Below are positions 53,831 through 64,000 of a stretch of 64,000 nucleotides of DNA, piece by piece. The translations under genes were made by a program, and so were the position numbers. The DNA comes from Thermomicrobium sp. 4228-Ro (lineage in GTDB: Bacteria > Chloroflexota > Chloroflexia > Thermomicrobiales > Thermomicrobiaceae): NCBI RefSeq assembly GCF_026241205.1, contig NZ_JAPFQM010000001.1, positions 1 to 64,000 on the forward strand, given 5' to 3'. The notes under the pieces are model-generated. The model had not been told where the DNA came from. It did no database searches and was given only the letters and a program-made list of their open reading frames with translations. Position 1 is the stretch's first letter, and every line of letters begins with the position of its first letter.

Positions 53831-55507
53831 TCAGGAAAGCGCCTGCGAGGACTCGCGGACTCGTCTCAGGATCACCGAAGCCTCGTCGCTTCGTGCCAAG
53901 CGAGGGCGGTGGTAGTCCTGGATGATCACTGGCACGAGGTGGTAGCGACGGAGTTCGGCTCCGGAAAACCAGAGATGAAGGATCAAGCCTTGCTTCGTTT
54001 CGAACGACCACTCCTGGTCGAAAACGAAGTTTCCGAGCGAGTAGAAGATCGGTCTCCCACGGTACCACTCGATTCCCTGGACCCAGTGCGGATGCGAACC
54101 GACGACGAGCGTCGCTCCGCTATCGATCGCGAGATGCGCGATCCGCCGTTGGGTTTCGGTCGGGATGAGCGTGTATTCGACTCCCCAATGAAAGTACGGT
54201 ATTACGATGTCCGCGCAATCGGCTGCTCGACGGATGGCAGTCGCAACGATCTCGGGTTCGAGTGGAGCCGTGCCAGCAGTCGTTTCCGTCGCTCCAGACC
54301 ACTGTGCGGAAATACCGTCGAAACCGAGCAAAGCGATGGTGACGTTCCCGACGCGGAGTACCGCTGGCTCACTCGCCTGTCGCAGATCGTCCCCCGCTCC
54401 GAACCAGCTGATGCCGGCTCGGTCGAGGGCGGCCTGCGTGTCACGCAGTGCGTCCGCACCGAAGTCCATGCTGTGGTTGTTGGCGAGACTGACCGCATCG
54501 ATACCAGCGAGCGTCAAGCCGTCGACTGCTCGCGGGAAGGTGAGAAAGCGCATCGTGTATGGATCGTCGGGTGGAGGGAAGCGGTCGCTCAGAGCGCACT
54601 CGAGGTTTCCGATCGTCAGGTCGCTCCGAGCGAGCTCGTCGGCAACGTCGCGAAAGGGAGCCTGCCAATCGTCGAGACGCTCCATGATGCGATGGACGGT
54701 GCGACCGAGAATCATGTCACCGACGACCGTCACAGTCAGGAAACGCGGCCGATCGATCGTAACGGGAAGCTGAGCTTCGTCGGGCAGCAGCTGCACTGGT
54801 CCCTCGACGACGAGCCACTCGGTCAGTACCTCCGGAATGGCTGCACCGTGCGCCTGACGGAGCGGGTCGCGACTATCGAGCGTGAGTACCGAGAGTCGAG
54901 GGTGGATCGCGGTCGGCTCGACGAAGGCCAGCACGCCTGGTTGTGCCAGAGTCAACAGTTCTGGAACTCGCGCAACGACGGCGAGCGGATTGGAGAACAC
55001 GAATCCCTCGTCTCGAACCGAAACACGTGCGATCGGGAGCGATTCGACACTGCCAAGAGCTTGCCAGTCGTCAATCGTTCCATCCAGAATGGCTGGAAGC
55101 GCCGCGACCGGTAGATCCTGCACCAGATTGTCGTGCGAGGTCACCGGGACGAACCAACGACCACCGATCGGCAAGCCGGTCGGCGAACCCTGGATCGTAC
55201 GAAGGCGGAAAGTTCCGTTGTCGTCGTTCAGCTGGAGACGCCAATGCGGCGGGATAGAGCTGGTGAGCTGGTGGAGCCATCGCTGTGCCTGGTGTCGTAA
55301 GGTTGGCGGGAGTGGTGGTACCGCAATGTCGATGACGGGACGGGCCGGCAGTGTTCGTGGCGAACTCGATGTAGAGCGAAGCATTCGGTGCCGAACCGCG
55401 TCGGCAGTGGTGGCTTGCGGTGCTGGCAACCCTTCGGTAGGACTCGACGTTTGCCCGCAGCTTGCCAGCAACACTGATAAACTAGCGAGGAACTGTCGTC
55501 GGGTCAC
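53831..55507 (-). CDS. CapA-family metallophosphatase-like lipoprotein with N-terminal solute-binding-like domain
   Basis: 558 aa from GTG 55507. N-terminal RRQFLASLSVLLASCG is a lipoprotein signal with the lipobox Cys near residue 16. Residues 60-260 resemble a degenerate phosphate/molybdate-type binding protein (FVPVTSHDNLVQDLPVAALPAILDGTIDDWQALG). Residues 285-545 are the CapA/PgsA domain: VVGDMILGRTV, GNLECALSDR, SLANNHSMDFG, GFDGISAQ, and HFHWG-like YFHWGVEY with SGATLVVGSHPHWVQGIEWYRGRPIFYSLGNFVF. CapA proteins are linked to poly-gamma-glutamate or capsule export. No other pgs gene nearby. Confidence 0.82.
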   Translation of the reverse strand: MTRRQFLASLSVLLASCGQTSSPTEGLPAPQATTADAVRHRMLRSTSSSPRTLPARPVIDIAVPPLPPTLRHQAQRWLHQLTSSIPPHWRLQLNDDNGTFRLRTIQGSPTGLPIGGRWFVPVTSHDNLVQDLPVAALPAILDGTIDDWQALGSVESLPIARVSVRDEGFVFSNPLAVVARVPELLTLAQPGVLAFVEPTAIHPRLSVLTLDSRDPLRQAHGAAIPEVLTEWLVVEGPVQLLPDEAQLPVTIDRPRFLTVTVVGDMILGRTVHRIMERLDDWQAPFRDVADELARSDLTIGNLECALSDRFPPPDDPYTMRFLTFPRAVDGLTLAGIDAVSLANNHSMDFGADALRDTQAALDRAGISWFGAGDDLRQASEPAVLRVGNVTIALLGFDGISAQWSGATETTAGTAPLEPEIVATAIRRAADCADIVIPYFHWGVEYTLIPTETQRRIAHLAIDSGATLVVGSHPHWVQGIEWYRGRPIFYSLGNFVFDQEWSFETKQGLILHLWFSGAELRRYHLVPVIIQDYHRPRLARSDEASVILRRVRESSQALS

Positions 55508-55637
55508 CCCTGCGTCGCTCCCGAACGTGTTCGCTCTCAGCTGGTGATGCTCGAGAAACGATAGCGTCCCCGTATAGCAATGGCAAGGTGCCCACAAACG
55601 CGTTCCGGAATCTCAGAAACCATGATAGGGGAAACAA

Positions 55638-55662
55638 CGGGGAGACAGCAACTGTCTCCCCG
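55638..55662 (-). terminator. Terminator after the extradiol dioxygenase gene
   Basis: 10-bp stem CGGGGAGACA/TGTCTCCCCG (55638-55647, 55653-55662) with 5-nt loop. On the minus strand it is followed by TTGTTT. It closes the four-gene minus-strand aromatic unit. Confidence 0.7.
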
Positions 55663-55690: not shown

Positions 55691-56671
55691 CTAGCGGGCG
55701 ACCGCGACCGGTGGCGTGCCGTGTGTGTGGAAGGTAGCCACAGTCGGAAGGCCCCAGGCCTGACCGCGCTTCCGCTCTTCCTCTGTCCAGACGATCGGCT
55801 TCCAGTCTGGGGCGACGACGAGGCGCGCGCCCGGGCAGCCGATCTCGACACGGTGACCGCCCGGCTCGATCACGTAGAGGAATACGGTCTGCTGCACCGC
55901 ATGCTTGTGCGGGCCGTATTCGATCTTGTAACCGAACTCGATCGCGATATCGGCAGCGCGAAGCACCTCCTCGCGGGTGTCGACCGCGTAGCAGACATGG
56001 TGGAAACGGCCGCGGGCGCCCGTGCCGTCCTCGGTGACCGCGATCTCGTACCCCTTATTGTTCGACGTCACCCAGGCTCCCTTCTCGGATCCGTCATCGA
56101 AGATGATGCACTCCGTCAGTTTGAGCCCGAGGTACTTCTGGAGGAAGATCCGCGTCGAACGGACATCGGCAGCGAAGACGTTGATGTGATCGAGTCGCCG
56201 CACATTGCAGCCGCGAGCGGGGAAGCGGGAGGCTTGATTCTTGAGAGCTGGCTTCGTTTCCGGTGTCGGCTGGTACCATTCGATCTCCCAGATGAGCTCA
56301 CCGATATGGCCGTCCGGAGTTCGGAACCGATACGCTGGACCGTGACCGGCATCGCCGTCGATCCAGCCCAAGCCGAGGCCCGACTGCTCGAGGAGTGCGA
56401 CACGGCGCTGGAGTGCCTCGGGCGTGCTGACCCGGTAGGCGAAGTGTTCCATCGCGGGAACCGGACCGACTGTAAGCTTGAGGGTGTGGTGCGCGTAGTC
56501 GTCCCACCCGCGTAGATACACCGAGTTCCCTCGCTGCTCGGTCACGTACATCCCCATGTACTCGACGAAAAACCGAACGCTTTCATCGAGTACCGGAGTC
56601 GTGAGTTCGAGATGGGCAAGGTGGGCCATATCGAAGCTCGGTTCACCGATATAGAGGGTCACATCGTTCAT
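55691..56671 (-). CDS. Type I (VOC) extradiol ring-cleavage dioxygenase, catechol 2,3-dioxygenase-like
   Basis: 326 aa. Two vicinal-oxygen-chelate domains. The N-terminal half (MAHLAHLELTTPVLDESVRFFVEYMGMYV, GNSVYLRGWDDYAHHTLKL) and the C-terminal half (RRLDHINVFAADV, GRFHHVCYAVD, GGHRVEIGCPG) match catechol 2,3-dioxygenases. Iron ligands would be H162, H225 and E276, with spacing like that of XylE. It cleaves a catecholic ring beside one hydroxyl. The actual substrate (catechol, protocatechuate, gallate type) is not readable. Last gene of the unit with RraA, GalB-like and amidohydrolase genes. Confidence 0.85.
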   Translation of the reverse strand: MNDVTLYIGEPSFDMAHLAHLELTTPVLDESVRFFVEYMGMYVTEQRGNSVYLRGWDDYAHHTLKLTVGPVPAMEHFAYRVSTPEALQRRVALLEQSGLGLGWIDGDAGHGPAYRFRTPDGHIGELIWEIEWYQPTPETKPALKNQASRFPARGCNVRRLDHINVFAADVRSTRIFLQKYLGLKLTECIIFDDGSEKGAWVTSNNKGYEIAVTEDGTGARGRFHHVCYAVDTREEVLRAADIAIEFGYKIEYGPHKHAVQQTVFLYVIEPGGHRVEIGCPGARLVVAPDWKPIVWTEEERKRGQAWGLPTVATFHTHGTPPVAVAR

Positions 56672-56720
56672 CGCGAACCTCCCCTGCGTTGATGACCGAT
56701 CACCGACTGATCCCCCAACC

Positions 56721-57386
56721 TCACCGTTGTCCCTCGACGACCTGGCGCAGGCCGTGGATATCGAAGCTCAGTTCCCCAAACTTCAGTCGCTCACGCATCC
56801 GCGCTTCGCGCTCGGCACGGGCGCGGGCTGCTTCGAGGACCGCTTCAGCTCGGTTCCGTGCAACCACGACAGCCCCGTCGTCGTCGAGGACGACGATGTC
56901 ACCCGGGGCCACGCGTGCACCGCCCACTGTCACCGGAACCTCGAGTTGACCGATTTTGTCTTTCGTCGCTCCACGCACCCGAATGAATCGCGTCCACACC
57001 GGCAGATCCATCGCCCGCAGTTCGTCGACATCGCGGACCGCTGCGTCGACGAGGAGCGCCGCTGCACCACGAACCTTGGCCTGGATCGCGAGGAGTTCGC
57101 CAACCAGGGCGACGGGCTCCGGCTCCGGCATCGTGAGGACCAGAACAGCACCAGGATAGACGCGTTCCATCACTGCATGCACCATGAGGTTGTCACCCTG
57201 CCCGCAGAGGACTGTCAATGCTGGGCCTGCGACACGACGGTCCGGAAGCAAGGGGATGAGCGGAATATCGATCAAGCCCTCACGGCCCGATGCTTCGTAG
57301 ACAGTCGCCACCCCCAGCTCTGCGAATGCGCGGGAAAGTTCGAGAGCGGTCGCATCGGGGACGGTAGCCTGGCGCACTTCGGTCAT
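56721..57386 (-). CDS. RraA/GalC-like 4-carboxy-4-hydroxy-2-oxoadipate aldolase
   Basis: 221 aa. RraA-fold protein with GELLAIQAKVRGAAALLVDAAVRD, containing the G96...R118-D119 pyruvate/metal site of CHA aldolases, and an N-terminal ATVYEASGREG segment. In the gallate and protocatechuate 4,5-cleavage pathways this enzyme splits CHA to pyruvate and oxaloacetate. Length and neighbours (GalB-like and dioxygenase) favour aldolase over the RNase E inhibitor RraA. 20 bp after the GalB-like gene. Confidence 0.82.
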   Translation of the reverse strand: MTEVRQATVPDATALELSRAFAELGVATVYEASGREGLIDIPLIPLLPDRRVAGPALTVLCGQGDNLMVHAVMERVYPGAVLVLTMPEPEPVALVGELLAIQAKVRGAAALLVDAAVRDVDELRAMDLPVWTRFIRVRGATKDKIGQLEVPVTVGGARVAPGDIVVLDDDGAVVVARNRAEAVLEAARARAEREARMRERLKFGELSFDIHGLRQVVEGQR

Positions 57387-57406
57387 CGGTGTGTCCTCCT
57401 CTCCGA

Positions 57407-58138
57407 TTAGCCGTGGCCGGGGAGTACGCGAGCCACGAGCGGTGTGACACGCTGGAACGCTTCAGCGTAGCGGATGTCCTTGATGCCGGATATACGGCGG
57501 GCGTGATTGGCGCGACGCTCGCCGAGTTCGGCGTAATACCGTTGCAAGTACTGCTGAGAAGCCATGACCTGCATGGCAGCGAGCTTCTTCTCCCATACCG
57601 GCGTGATGTCGACGAACATGTTGGGGACAAAGCCGCATAGTTCCGGCTGGTGCGGTTCGAAGTAGTACAGAGGTGGTGGCTCGACAGTCTCGAAGGCGCT
57701 GGCAACGCCGGCGCCGGAAGAGAGCAGGCGAGCCTGCTGCACCGCCTGATTGGCCACCGGATGATCTGGATTGAAGGGATCGACCGGTGTGTGCGTGATG
57801 ATCGCTTCAGGACGGAATTCGCGGATCAACTGCGCGAGGCGCTCCGTCGCTTCCCTGTCGACCTGGAGAGGGTAATCGCCGAGGTCGTAACACAGGAAGC
57901 GTGCCCCGATCGCTGCAGCGGCGCGCTCAGCCTGTTCGCGCCGGATCGCCTTCACCCGTTCGACGGTTTGACCCGGTTCCTTCCATAGTTCTCCGGATTC
58001 TCCGCGTTCACCGTAGGAGAGTGCGAGGACGATCGCTTCCCCGCCGTTCGCGGTGACCGACGCGATCACACCGGCTGCGCGCCAGACGAAGTCCGCAGCG
58101 TGTGCGCCGACGACCAAGAGGCGCTGTACTCCTTTCAT
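57407..58138 (-). CDS. PIG-L-family protein, GalB-like 4-oxalomesaconate hydratase
   Basis: 243 aa. The zinc site is H13, D16 (GAHAADFVWRAAG) and H126 (DPFNPDHPVAN). The AHAAD form, instead of the AHPDD of deacetylases, and the following LSYGERGES...LWK are what I recall for the GalB-type hydratase of gallate catabolism. Other supporting segments are FEPHQPELCGF and YYAELGERRANHAR. It would hydrate 4-oxalomesaconate to CHA, the substrate of the next gene's aldolase. ATG at 58138 overlaps the amidohydrolase stop by 4 bp. Confidence 0.75.
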   Translation of the reverse strand: MKGVQRLLVVGAHAADFVWRAAGVIASVTANGGEAIVLALSYGERGESGELWKEPGQTVERVKAIRREQAERAAAAIGARFLCYDLGDYPLQVDREATERLAQLIREFRPEAIITHTPVDPFNPDHPVANQAVQQARLLSSGAGVASAFETVEPPPLYYFEPHQPELCGFVPNMFVDITPVWEKKLAAMQVMASQQYLQRYYAELGERRANHARRISGIKDIRYAEAFQRVTPLVARVLPGHG

Positions 58139-59061
58139 TCGTCCCTCCCCGTCGCGAGTCGCACCGTATTCCGCACTGCCATCGTCCGGATGTCGTCCTC
58201 GCTGAAGCCCGCCTGGAGGAGACGATCGGCGAAGAGTGCGAGACCATCTTCGACCGGTGGGTTATCCGGTTGGCCGAGATCGGTACTGAGTACGACACGG
58301 TCCGGTCCGACCGCACGGATGTGCGCGAATGCTGTCTCCCAGGCGACCTTGCCGCTGTACAGCGGCGTGAAACAGTGCTCCATGTAGGCGCCCAACTCGG
58401 CCAGCGCGAGCTGATCCTCGACTGAAAGCGCTTGCGAGGGGAAATCGGGGTGCGTCACGACGATGTGGCGGACACCTTCCTCCCGTGCCGCCTTCACGAC
58501 CGCGACGATTTCGTCCCGGCCGAGATGACCCGTCGCGAGCACGAGGCCGTGCCGGGCGATGATGCGGAGAACGGCACGAAGTTCGGGCACCACCTGTCCG
58601 TCTGGTCCGAGAACCTCGACCGGTGGTACAGCAAAACCTGCCTCGCGCATTTCGCGTTGCAGACGTGCCCAATACGGGAGTTTCGTACCGGGTGCCGCGT
58701 GCTCCAAATGCCGCCGCTCGTTCGCAGCGTCGACAGTCGGTAACCAGACGATCCTCGCTCCTTCGCGCGCGGCGATTTCGACCGCGAGCGGGTTCAACCC
58801 GCCGACAGCCCGGTTGAGCGTGATCGACCCGAGGACCTGGACTCCGGGAACGGCTGCGCGAGCCACCGCAGCTCGCTCGGCGGTCGGTACGTAATGCGAC
58901 TTGATGACATAGCCTGCCAAACCCACCTCGAGAAAGCGACGGGCGAGGTCGATATCGTCGATCCGCCGCGGCATGACATCGGGACCCGAGTGGACGTGGA
59001 GATCGTATGCTCCTCGGACGAGTTCGCGTGCCCGCTCCGATGGGGTCGGGTGCATGGTCAT
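58135..59061 (-). CDS. Amidohydrolase-superfamily protein
   Basis: 308 aa. Metal-site residues of a TIM-barrel amidohydrolase are visible: D20-L-H22-V-H24, K54/H56, H179 (LATGHLGRDE), H204 (VVTHPDFPSQ) and D261 (STDLGQPDN). In aromatic pathways, superfamily members act as pyrone/lactone hydrolases (LigI), OMA hydratase (LigJ) or decarboxylases (LigW). This one is not close enough to name. First gene of the four-gene unit, preceded by an extended -10 promoter; AAGGGTGAAGA is the ribosome binding site. Confidence 0.72.
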   Translation of the reverse strand: MTMHPTPSERARELVRGAYDLHVHSGPDVMPRRIDDIDLARRFLEVGLAGYVIKSHYVPTAERAAVARAAVPGVQVLGSITLNRAVGGLNPLAVEIAAREGARIVWLPTVDAANERRHLEHAAPGTKLPYWARLQREMREAGFAVPPVEVLGPDGQVVPELRAVLRIIARHGLVLATGHLGRDEIVAVVKAAREEGVRHIVVTHPDFPSQALSVEDQLALAELGAYMEHCFTPLYSGKVAWETAFAHIRAVGPDRVVLSTDLGQPDNPPVEDGLALFADRLLQAGFSEDDIRTMAVRNTVRLATGRDE

Positions 59062-60403: not shown

Positions 60404-60792
60404 CGTATGCCCTCCTCACGTGATCTCGAACCATCTCCTCGCTTCTCGTGGTCCTGAACTCTCGGTGTTCTCGCTACAGAGACCGGTGATCCCGAGAGGA
60501 ACATCTCCATTTGGTCACAACAACCGCGTGTGTTCTCTTGCTGGGTAATAAAGTGCTAAGTCACCATGCAAGAGCTATCGGAGTATACAATAGAAAACAC
60601 GTACCTGTGTTAGGTGTTCGGATATTCTGAACACAAAAGCAGCCCATCTCTGCCTTCATACTAGTGATCCAATGAAGCTGTGTCAAGATGCTGTCATGCT
60701 ACGGACCTGTAGCGAGGGCATGAAGCGGCCGTGCCACGACGCGCTCGCTGACGTCGGTACACCGTGACGTAGCTGCGCGGCCGGATGATGGA
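60404..60792 (-). promoter_or_regulatory. Promoter, palindrome and long leader upstream of the substrate-binding gene
   Basis: AT-richer non-coding stretch. On the minus strand TTGACA (60686-60681), 17-bp spacer, TAGTAT (60663-60658) is a near-consensus promoter with start near 60651. GTGTTCGG-ATATT-CTGAACAC (60614-60634) is a near-perfect palindrome (7 of 8 pairs) at about +17 to +37, a repressor-type position. A second short repeat AACAC-N6-GTGTT lies at 60596-60611. The remaining leader to GTG 60403 is about 250 nt. I see no gene in it. Confidence 0.7.
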
Positions 60793-62308: not shown

Positions 62309-63964
62309 TCATGAGACACCGAGGATGTTGCCGTGCTCGTCGATATCGATCTGCGCTGCCCGCGGCTTGCGTCCCAGCCCCGGCATCGTCTGGATGTCGT
62401 TGAGGAGCACGACGACATACCCCGCTCCTGCGAAGAGCCGAAGCTCTCGCACCTCGACGGTGAAACCTTCCGGGCGTCCGAGCAGATTAGGATCGGCACT
62501 GAGCGATATCGGTGTCTTCGCCATGCAGACTGGCAACTTGTCGTAGCCATGGCGGGCCAGTTCCTCGAGTTGCCGGCGCGCAGCTGCGCTGAAGTGCACC
62601 CCAGCTGCACCGTAGATCGTTCGGGCGATCGCTTCGACCTTCTGCTCGAGGGGCCAGTCGAGCTCATAGACCGGCTTGAATGCTGGTTCACTGGCAGCTG
62701 CTCGCAGCACGGCCTGGGCTAGATCGATCCCGCCTTCACCGCCACGGCTGTAGACCTCGACGACAGCCGCGTCGCTCGCGCCCGCATCGATCGCAGCCTT
62801 ACCGACCAGCTCGAGTTCACGAGAAGTGTCGCTGGGGAACCGATTGATCGCGACGACTGCCGGGACACCGAAGGTCTTCAGGTTCTCGATGTGCTTGATG
62901 AGGTTGGGTAAACCAGCTTCGAGCGCCGCAAGATCTTCGCCTCCCTGCTCGACCTCGCGGACACTCTTGCCACCCTGTACCTTGAGCGCACGTACCGAGG
63001 CGACGAGCACCGCGGCATGCGGGGCGAGGCCGCTCGAGCGACACTTGAGGTGGAAGAACTTCTCTGCACCGAGATCAGTACCGAAACCGGCCTCGGTAAT
63101 CACGACGTCGCCGAGTCGGGTGGCCAGCATGTCGGCGACGACCGACGAGGTTCCCGTTGCGATATTCCCGAAGGGGCCCGCGTGGACGAGGGCAGCGGTT
63201 CCCTCGCTCGTTTGCACGAGGTTCGGCTTGAGTGCGTCGACCAAGAGTGCTGCCATAGCTCCAGCTGCTCCTAAGTCATCCGCGGTTACCGGTTTCCCGT
63301 CCCAGGTGAAGCCGACGACGATCCGCCCGAGACGCTGGCGGAGATCGCGGTAGTCGCGAGCCAGCGCCAGGATGGCCATGACCTCCGAGGCTGGTGTGAT
63401 ATCGAACCGTGTCAAGCGGACGGTACGGGCCGACTCCCCCAGACCCAGGACGAGCTGGCGCAGCGCCCGGTCATTCAGATCGATCACGCGGGGCCACGTG
63501 ACCGTACGGGGATCGAGTGTGGTCGTTCCCTGGTAGAGTGCGTTGTCGAGGACGGCAGCGAGAAGGTTGTGTGCGACCGTGACGGCATGGTTGTCGCCGG
63601 TGAAGTGGAGCGCGAGATCGGGGAAGGGGTGCAGCTGCGCCGCACCGCCACCGGCGCCCGCACCTTTAGTCCCGAAGACGGGTCCCATCGACGACTGCCG
63701 TACCGTGATGATCGAGCGGAGGCCGAGACGTCCGAATGCCTGGCCGAGCCCAACCGAGACGGTCGTCTTGCCCTCGCCGAAGGGGGTCGGCGTGATACCC
63801 GTAACCAGAACGTACCGAGCGCGGGGAGGCCCGAGACGCTCGATGGCCTCGAGACGGACCTTTGCTTTGTAGGGGCCGTAGAGTTCGAGTTCCTCGGGGT
63901 GCAGGCCGAGTTCACTCGCGATGTCACTGACCGGTCGCAGCTTAGCGAGCTGCGTTCCGCCCAT
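62309..63964 (-). CDS. fhs: Formate-tetrahydrofolate ligase (LigH-like)
   Basis: ATP-dependent synthesis of 10-formyl-THF from formate, or the reverse under catabolism. 551 aa from ATG 63964 (GGAAAGGAG upstream; 63985 is an alternative). ATP site TPTPFGEGKTT at 58-68, QSSMGPVFGTKGAGAGGGAAQ, FTGDNHAVTVAHN, TEAGFGTDLGAEKFF and NRFPSDTSRELELV are standard. Directly ahead of ligM on the same strand; in methoxyaromatic catabolism it would process C1 units released by demethylation. Confidence 0.95.
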   Translation of the reverse strand: MGGTQLAKLRPVSDIASELGLHPEELELYGPYKAKVRLEAIERLGPPRARYVLVTGITPTPFGEGKTTVSVGLGQAFGRLGLRSIITVRQSSMGPVFGTKGAGAGGGAAQLHPFPDLALHFTGDNHAVTVAHNLLAAVLDNALYQGTTTLDPRTVTWPRVIDLNDRALRQLVLGLGESARTVRLTRFDITPASEVMAILALARDYRDLRQRLGRIVVGFTWDGKPVTADDLGAAGAMAALLVDALKPNLVQTSEGTAALVHAGPFGNIATGTSSVVADMLATRLGDVVITEAGFGTDLGAEKFFHLKCRSSGLAPHAAVLVASVRALKVQGGKSVREVEQGGEDLAALEAGLPNLIKHIENLKTFGVPAVVAINRFPSDTSRELELVGKAAIDAGASDAAVVEVYSRGGEGGIDLAQAVLRAAASEPAFKPVYELDWPLEQKVEAIARTIYGAAGVHFSAAARRQLEELARHGYDKLPVCMAKTPISLSADPNLLGRPEGFTVEVRELRLFAGAGYVVVLLNDIQTMPGLGRKPRAAQIDIDEHGNILGVS

Positions 63965-64000
63965 CAATCGGCTCCTTTCCCTCACTCAGCAACCGAGCCG

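Follow-up and report, generated by a model that had tools for sequence, protein, structure and literature searches.

A type I (VOC) ring-cleavage dioxygenase gene recurrently linked to gallate-type lower-pathway genes in Thermomicrobium sp. 4228-Ro and other bacteria

The closest described systems are the gallate pathway of Pseudomonas putida KT2440 (galTAP/galBCD), the syringate pathway of Pseudomonas sp. NGC7 (VanA1B1, MgaAB, MgaC, MgaD, and GalDBC), and the syringate/vanillate system of Sphingobium SYK-6 (DesA, LigM, DesB, LigAB, and DesZ). In the parts of the literature that deal with these pathways, the 4-oxalomesaconate (OMA) routes for gallate, 3-O-methylgallate, and protocatechuate 4,5-cleavage were described with type II (LigB-fold) ring cleavage. 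According to the pathway sections of PMC12314914, cleavage of gallate yields OMA directly, and cleavage of 3-O-methylgallate yields the methyl ester 4-carboxy-2-hydroxy-6-methoxy-6-oxohexa-2,4-dienoate (CHMOD), which turns into 2-pyrone-4,6-dicarboxylate (PDC) with a half-life of ~70 min. In the open-access literature (subscription papers were outside the search), we found no description of a type I enzyme in an OMA route. Here we analyzed positions 1 to 64,000 of contig NZ_JAPFQM010000001.1 of Thermomicrobium sp. 4228-Ro (assembly GCF_026241205.1), a 64,000-nucleotide stretch referred to below as the window. Four adjoining genes on its minus strand (positions 55691-59061) coded for a type I dioxygenase of the VOC type, an RraA-like protein, a PIG-L family protein, and a DUF6282 protein. 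The initial annotation had singled out the joining of a type I dioxygenase to gallate-type lower-pathway enzymes, and both the coordinates and the family identities were confirmed. We consider it reasonably probable that the type I enzyme replaces LigAB or GalA in an OMA route that is supplied with demethylated syringyl or vanillyl acids.

Loci for comparison were collected by a scan with a GalB alignment (one genome per species). The best 80 of at least 576 confirmed relatives were kept, and the sample was therefore biased toward close GalBs. Genes were counted via a stop-to-stop search of the 80 loci; a simple open reading frame (ORF) picker overlooked many of them where the DNA was GC-rich. 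Within 8 kb of GalB, we found an RraA gene in 75 loci, a VOC gene in 55, a DUF6282 gene in 44, a DUF1932 dehydrogenase gene in 42, PrpF in 26, LigM in 9, and PobA in 5. The VOC loci were distributed over six phyla, namely Thermomicrobiota, Chloroflexota (Anaerolineae), Deinococcota (Thermus and Meiothermus), Armatimonadota, Actinomycetota, and Bacteroidota. Of the GalB loci with names, those of HRbin27 and Thermomicrobium were nearest to that of the window, and the VOC tree agreed. LigAB was located within 3 kb of GalB in three of the 80 loci (L106, L107, and L111), none of which had a VOC gene; a LigB-like match was located 9 kb from GalB in L076, and LigC- and LigI-like genes were present in L107 and L111 only. 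Because VOC (55/80) and LigAB (3/80) were never found together, they were mutually exclusive at the GalB locus. In a reverse test with 301 Chloroflexota genomes, a GalB match was located within 3 kb of 10 of the 13 VOC matches of at least 470 bits and of 0 of the 27 weaker VOC matches listed. No fusion proteins between cassette members were found in a scan of the 80 loci. A different pathway variant, which had been one of the initial suggestions, is thus favored over a chance neighborhood: the gene content of these loci supports the idea that a VOC dioxygenase and gallate/protocatechuate-type lower enzymes form a recurrent pathway variant.

The VOC protein of the window scored 308.8 bits with TIGR03211, the catechol 2,3-dioxygenase equivalog model, which was just below the cut-off of 320.2. 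The AlphaFold2 (AF2) model (pLDDT 86.7) superposed on AphC, XylE, and homoprotocatechuate 2,3-dioxygenase (HPCD), and it had the two-module VOC fold (Foldseek TM 0.89 to 3lm4 and 0.86 to 1mpy). A family scan of the protein gave only VOC-type families and no match to the LigB fold (PF02900). We then compared active-site positions with those of HPCD in 54 cassette relatives, leaving out L059, which was represented by a fragment only. The metal ligands H162, H225, and E276 (a 2-His-1-Glu site) were present in the window protein and in all 54 relatives, and H257, Y266, N164, and W200 were kept in 54/54. The position of HPCD H200, which we take to be an acid-base residue that is common but not strictly defining in type I extradiol dioxygenases, was occupied by tyrosine (Tyr208) in the window protein and in 43 of the 54 relatives. 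The other 11 relatives, all from Solirubrobacterales or related Actinomycetota, had His at this position, which corresponded to one change on the VOC tree. R300 was invariant and position 302 was Lys or Arg in 54/54, and HPCD R243 and R293, which are presumably carboxylate binders, were not kept. Hence, R300 and Lys/Arg302 may be part of a pocket for a different acidic substrate than that of HPCD. Three other VOC dioxygenases of this genome (G000:C1 ~672, 757, and 768 kb; loci L031 and L032) were 49, 45, and 45% identical to that of the window, and each was located behind a gene that looked hydroxylase-like by eye and that we take to resemble those for HpaB-type 4-hydroxyphenylacetate hydroxylases. 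No intradiol dioxygenase (PF00775) was found in the genome.

Among the PDB entries, the PIG-L protein matched P. putida GalB (5cgz) with an E value of 3e-62, and the next matches were at 1e-9. H13, D16, E47, H126, and H163, which we assume to be the metal and catalytic residues of GalB, were invariant in 81/81 rows. By these comparisons the protein is a GalB-type OMA hydratase, and it is predicted to convert OMA or 2-keto-4-carboxy-3-hexenedioate (KCH) to 4-carboxy-4-hydroxy-2-oxoadipate (CHA). The RraA protein scored 207.3 bits with the CHA aldolase/oxaloacetate decarboxylase model NF006731 (cut-off 179) but did not reach the narrower model TIGR02798 (190.3 versus 304.5), and it matched 3noj with an E value of 8.6e-47. 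R118, D119, and E194 were invariant in 75/75 rows; these are the equivalents of Arg-123, Asp-124, and Glu-199, whose roles in CHA aldolase are described in the relevant part of PMC5065237. A second aromatic cluster of the same genome (L021; G000:C11:1-15882) contained two LigM-like genes, a second GalB gene, and a clear HpaD gene (412.7 versus 321.4 bits); an HpaE-like dehydrogenase, proteins of the FAH and HpcH types, and an ABC transporter were recognized there by eye. The homoprotocatechuate-type setting of this second GalB is odd.

No tautomerase gene had been noted at the outset, and this part stood: a PrpF/GalD homologue (PF04303) was not found anywhere in the genome with a search in which controls were detected in 2/14. 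The slot itself is probably not empty. Of the 55 VOC loci, 27 had a DUF6282 gene, 22 had a PrpF gene, and 4 had a gene for a CHMI-like isomerase, and none had two of these. In the remaining two loci (L087 and L108), none of the three was seen before the contig end; we set these loci aside because the contigs end close behind GalB or RraA. Since exactly one slot gene was present in 53/53 untruncated loci, DUF6282 probably does a tautomerase-like job or an equivalent hydrolase step and fills the missing GalD slot. Moreover, all 22 PrpF proteins of the VOC loci matched the OMA tautomerase model NF033377 with E values of 1e-100 or lower (467.5 versus a cut-off of 440 for the one shown in full). 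We regard this as the most telling indication that the VOC product joins the OMA pool and that DUF6282 has a similar role. When all 80 loci were considered, DUF6282 and PrpF occurred together in 2, DUF6282 alone in 42, and PrpF alone in 24; the p value for this comparison ignores relatedness. The slot label changed only 4 times on the VOC tree, indicating that independent slot replacements were few.

The AF2 model of DUF6282 (pLDDT 86.6) was an amidohydrolase-type barrel with Z scores of ~20 to dihydroorotase and phosphotriesterase and an E value of 4.6e-5 to LigI (4dia), and the family scan matched PF19799 only. H24, S55, H56, H179, and D261 were invariant, and H22, K54, and H204 were kept in 95% or more of the 45 rows. 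The fold and the conserved residues make an amidohydrolase-kind active site likely, and the modeled fold alone does not separate an isomerase from an esterase or a lactonase. We found no paper using the word DUF6282 in the open-access literature. The use of DUF6282 as a cassette marker was considered and rejected, since at the chosen thresholds 41 of the 301 Chloroflexota genomes had DUF6282 and only 15 had GalB. A SnoaL/NTF2-like gene was located beside the cassette in L042, L046, L065, and L070; the part of PMC12314914 on Pseudomonas NGC7 proposes that MgaD, a SnoaL-like protein, is a CHMA isomerase.

The initial annotation had also considered that a LigB-type gene elsewhere might provide the substrate. 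We looked for such genes, and the only PF02900 homologue in the genome (65 bits; C1:1223454) was 1.17 Mb from the cluster on the same contig. Of the 21 genomes searched (this one and relatives), 18 had it, among them the congener G004, which had no GalB match. This homologue was weakened as the true dioxygenase because it was unlinked, widespread, and present in G004. When 15 of the 55 VOC-locus genomes were tested, 10 had no PF02900 match (the completeness of these assemblies was not stated) and 5 had one (L036, L039, L063, L072, and L084); the same search gave matches in 17 of 25 non-VOC genomes. The proposed role of the type I enzyme was not refuted by these results.

Genes for a LigM/DesA-type demethylase, formate--tetrahydrofolate ligase (FTHFS), and a methylenetetrahydrofolate reductase (MTHFR)-like protein were found directly upstream of the window cassette, and we counted them in favor of an OMA route fed by demethylated acids. 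The four-gene set of the initial annotation was correct, but these genes and that of a substrate-binding protein (SBP), all in 59246-64948 on the same strand, were unmentioned. The demethylase matched the LigM structure 5tl4 with an E value of 5.3e-157; it passed the LigM model NF047885 (588.6 versus a cut-off of 580) and failed the DesA model NF047633 (639.9 versus 800). LigM/DesA, FTHFS, and MTHFR-like genes also adjoined the cassette in L028, which is from another genus; the MTHFR-like homologue there was next to FTHFS and the cassette. This gene set favors syringyl or vanillyl acids as the feed, and the window substrate would be gallate, 3-O-methylgallate, or protocatechuate. An undescribed substrate, as first suggested, is unnecessary given the demethylase gene upstream. 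Two LigM-type genes each were present in L056 (Rubrobacteraceae HOT.MB2.74) and L052 (Armatimonadetes SKYB51), and the latter also had FTHFS. The cassette-bearing metagenome-assembled genome (MAG) L056 shares its name with MAG MB2.74 of PMC9296663 and, going by the name, would be the same MAG. In the parts of that paper that concern it, MB2.74 was 13C-enriched from synthetic lignin; DesA-like aminomethyltransferases are described there, and words that start with dioxygenase are absent from its main text.

We propose that the cluster provides ring cleavage and the lower steps within an operon for methoxylated aromatics of the syringate/vanillate type. In this scheme, the LigM/DesA enzyme would transfer O-methyl groups to tetrahydrofolate, yielding gallate or 3-O-methylgallate, and the MTHFR-like protein and FTHFS would recover the one-carbon unit. 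The VOC enzyme, replacing type II GalA, DesB, or LigAB, would open the ring and yield OMA, a C7 tricarboxylate, or the methyl ester or lactone form of OMA. DUF6282 would convert this product to a form acceptable to GalB, either as a GalD-like tautomerase or via ester or lactone hydrolysis. GalB would then hydrate it to CHA, which the RraA-type aldolase would split into pyruvate and oxaloacetate.

A narrower version of this proposal has the VOC enzyme cleave 3-O-methylgallate and makes DUF6282 a CHMOD methyl-ester (or PDC lactone) hydrolase analogous to MgaC, DesC/DesD, or LigI. The demethylase gene upstream and the amidohydrolase fold of DUF6282 fit this version, as does the requirement for a CHMOD hydrolase in Pseudomonas NGC7 reported in the corresponding part of PMC12314914. 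Moreover, of the 9 loci that had LigM nearby, 8 had DUF6282, versus 36 of the 71 loci that did not (Fisher p = 0.037, which ignores relatedness). In contrast, 36 of the 44 DUF6282 loci had no LigM near, and DUF6282 alternated with PrpF, a tautomerase, and not with a hydrolase, leaving this version unlikely, though the strongest of the alternatives.

Somewhat less likely is a reading in which the VOC enzyme acts as a protocatechuate 4,5-dioxygenase; in the window, vanillate would be the natural feed. A dehydrogenase (DUF1932 where present) would convert 4-carboxy-2-hydroxymuconate-6-semialdehyde (CHMS) to PDC, DUF6282 would be an analogue of LigI, whose amidohydrolase fold it resembles, and GalB and the aldolase would finish the route. 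The LigM model covers vanillate, DUF1932 was near GalB in 42 of the 80 loci (among those with a VOC gene, in 30 of 55), and PobA was present in 3 VOC loci. Protocatechuate cleavage would need a dehydrogenase, but the window cluster has none, and the sole relative obtained by a DUF1932 protein search of the genome was on C11 and 25% identical. As a straight replacement for LigC, DUF1932 was weakened by L107, which has a LigC-like gene and DUF1932 together, and 22 VOC loci had PrpF but neither DUF6282 nor LigI. The lack of LigC noted initially held for the cluster (no genome-wide LigC search was made) but is not anomalous, since cleavage of gallate or 3-O-methylgallate needs no aldehyde dehydrogenase, according to the pathway sections of PMC12314914. 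A conventional catechol or homoprotocatechuate dioxygenase that just happens to adjoin gallate-type genes is improbable despite the near-cut-off TIGR03211 score and the five further VOC dioxygenases of the genome, one of which is a clear HpaD, because the linkage was conserved across six phyla, GalB linkage was limited to the top-scoring VOC subgroup, and neither a semialdehyde dehydrogenase nor a hydrolase of the catechol meta route is encoded in the window cluster.

Several results weighed against the proposed OMA route with a type I enzyme. The model from NCBI nearest to the VOC protein is that of catechol 2,3-dioxygenase, which was matched by 20/20 members of set A3, and the chemistry may differ because Tyr208 replaces HPCD H200. 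Three of the 13 top VOC matches (G306 and two in G338) were in genomes without a GalB match at 1e-50. DUF6282 was not exclusive to the OMA route, since it was present where no GalB was found. The demethylase passed only the LigM cut-off, and narrowly. Finally, PobA adjoined the cassette in three Meiothermus loci and points to protocatechuate there; because these loci, which have PobA and DUF1932, may use protocatechuate, the VOC family may cover several related acids.

The genes and sites of the region are listed in Table 1. The four genes were tightly spaced, as had been noted, with intergenic distances of -4, 20, and 49 bases, and purine-rich, ribosome-site-like stretches preceded their starts. 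The gene order was MTHFR-FTHFS-LigM followed by SBP-DUF6282-GalB-RraA-VOC, and the two groups were separated by 447 bases that contained a promoter-like site. The operon genes may be co-transcribed. Two promoter-like sites were found in the region versus 1.0 expected from shuffles. The single terminator described initially was recovered as a hairpin behind the VOC gene (55662-55638; 8 of 11 pairs G-C, weak T tract), which we regard as modest because the 86-base fold had a z of -1.95; terminator-like sites in the region were not in excess (3 versus 4.5 in shuffles). The SBP probably serves in uptake. A tyrosine-integrase-like ORF (by eye) was located just 5' of the MTHFR-like gene (L002:10457-11632; C1 ~65.5-66.6 kb), and the operon may border a mobile element. 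A PGA_cap protein (PF09587; window 53831-55597) gave a weak match to the MslH lasso-peptide epimerase model (80.6 versus 700 bits).

Table 1. Genes and candidate sites of the cluster and its upstream region in the window
Feature	Position	Strand	Basis or remark
Type I (VOC) extradiol dioxygenase, 326 aa	55691..56671	-	PF00903; proposed ring-cleaving enzyme
RraA-fold CHA aldolase, LigK/GalC type, 221 aa	56721..57386	-	NF006731 above cut-off
PIG-L-family OMA hydratase, GalB type, 243 aa	57407..58138	-	5cgz E = 3e-62
DUF6282 protein, 308 aa, amidohydrolase-superfamily-like TIM barrel	58135..59061	-	PF19799 237 bits; proposed isomerase/hydrolase, OMA-tautomerase slot
NMT1/THI5-like ABC SBP, 385 aa	59246..60403	-	PF09084, PF13379
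Sigma-70-like promoter candidate, 10/12 matches, 5' of SBP gene	60658..60686	-	Consensus match only
Tetrahydrofolate-dependent aryl O-demethylase, LigM/DesA type, 466 aa	60851..62251	-	NF047885, 5tl4
FTHFS (LigH role)	62309..63985	-	NF010030 719 bits vs cut-off 652
MTHFR/MetF-like gene, end only in window	63986..64000	-	Continues to contig 64948 (L002:8986-9948); named by eye
Terminator-like hairpin, 11 pairs	55638..55662	-	Directly behind VOC gene

In a wider and more tentative form of the proposal, which we put forward at somewhat less than even confidence, a separate, widespread type I lineage (the Tyr208/R300 group and the His208 branch) would cleave gallate-type acids in the OMA route across Thermomicrobiota, Deinococcota, Armatimonadota, Actinomycetota, Anaerolineae, and Bacteroidota. 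DUF6282 would be an unrecognised OMA isomerase of the amidohydrolase fold in place of PrpF, so that unrelated parts would have been substituted at two steps of the pathway. If the proposed route is right, a capacity for syringyl/vanillyl acid breakdown has been overlooked in thermophiles and Bacteroidota. A ring-cleaving enzyme from a thermophile would be at hand for lignin streams, and DUF6282, a Pfam family of unknown function, would gain a directly testable reaction.

Among proteins of known structure, AphC of Rhodococcus RHA1 (3lm4 and 7q2a) has the type I fold of the window VOC protein (37% identity, TM 0.89) and was crystallised with 4-ethylcatechol. Unlike the cassette VOCs, with Tyr208 in 43/54 and R300 in 54/54, AphC has His at the H200 position. 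PDB entry 9wgj, deposited as a catechol 1,2-dioxygenase, is 49% identical to the window protein and has Tyr at 208 and the RKRGQAWG motif; it was not among the 50 Foldseek rows listed for the window model. Colatriano et al. (PMC6123686) reported numerous ring-cleaving dioxygenases, along with possible novel variants, from marine Chloroflexi, and the relevant part of that paper does not mention a VOC-GalB cassette. As far as the pathway descriptions in PMC12314914 go, KT2440 shares the OMA hydratase GalB and the CHA aldolase with the window, but its GalA is of the type II LigB fold and its GalD is a PrpF-type tautomerase, whereas the window has a VOC enzyme and, probably, DUF6282 in these places. 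In NGC7, a methoxylated acid is likewise converted to OMA and then handled by GalB and GalC; there, the demethylase is of the VanAB type and the dioxygenase is the LigAB-like MgaAB, in contrast to the folate demethylase and the VOC dioxygenase of the window. SYK-6, as described in parts of PMC12314914 and PMC6888825, likewise combines a folate-dependent demethylase with one-carbon recovery genes, but the ring-cleaving enzymes of SYK-6 and its relatives are type II, and LigJ is named as a hydratase beside GalB (PMC12314914).

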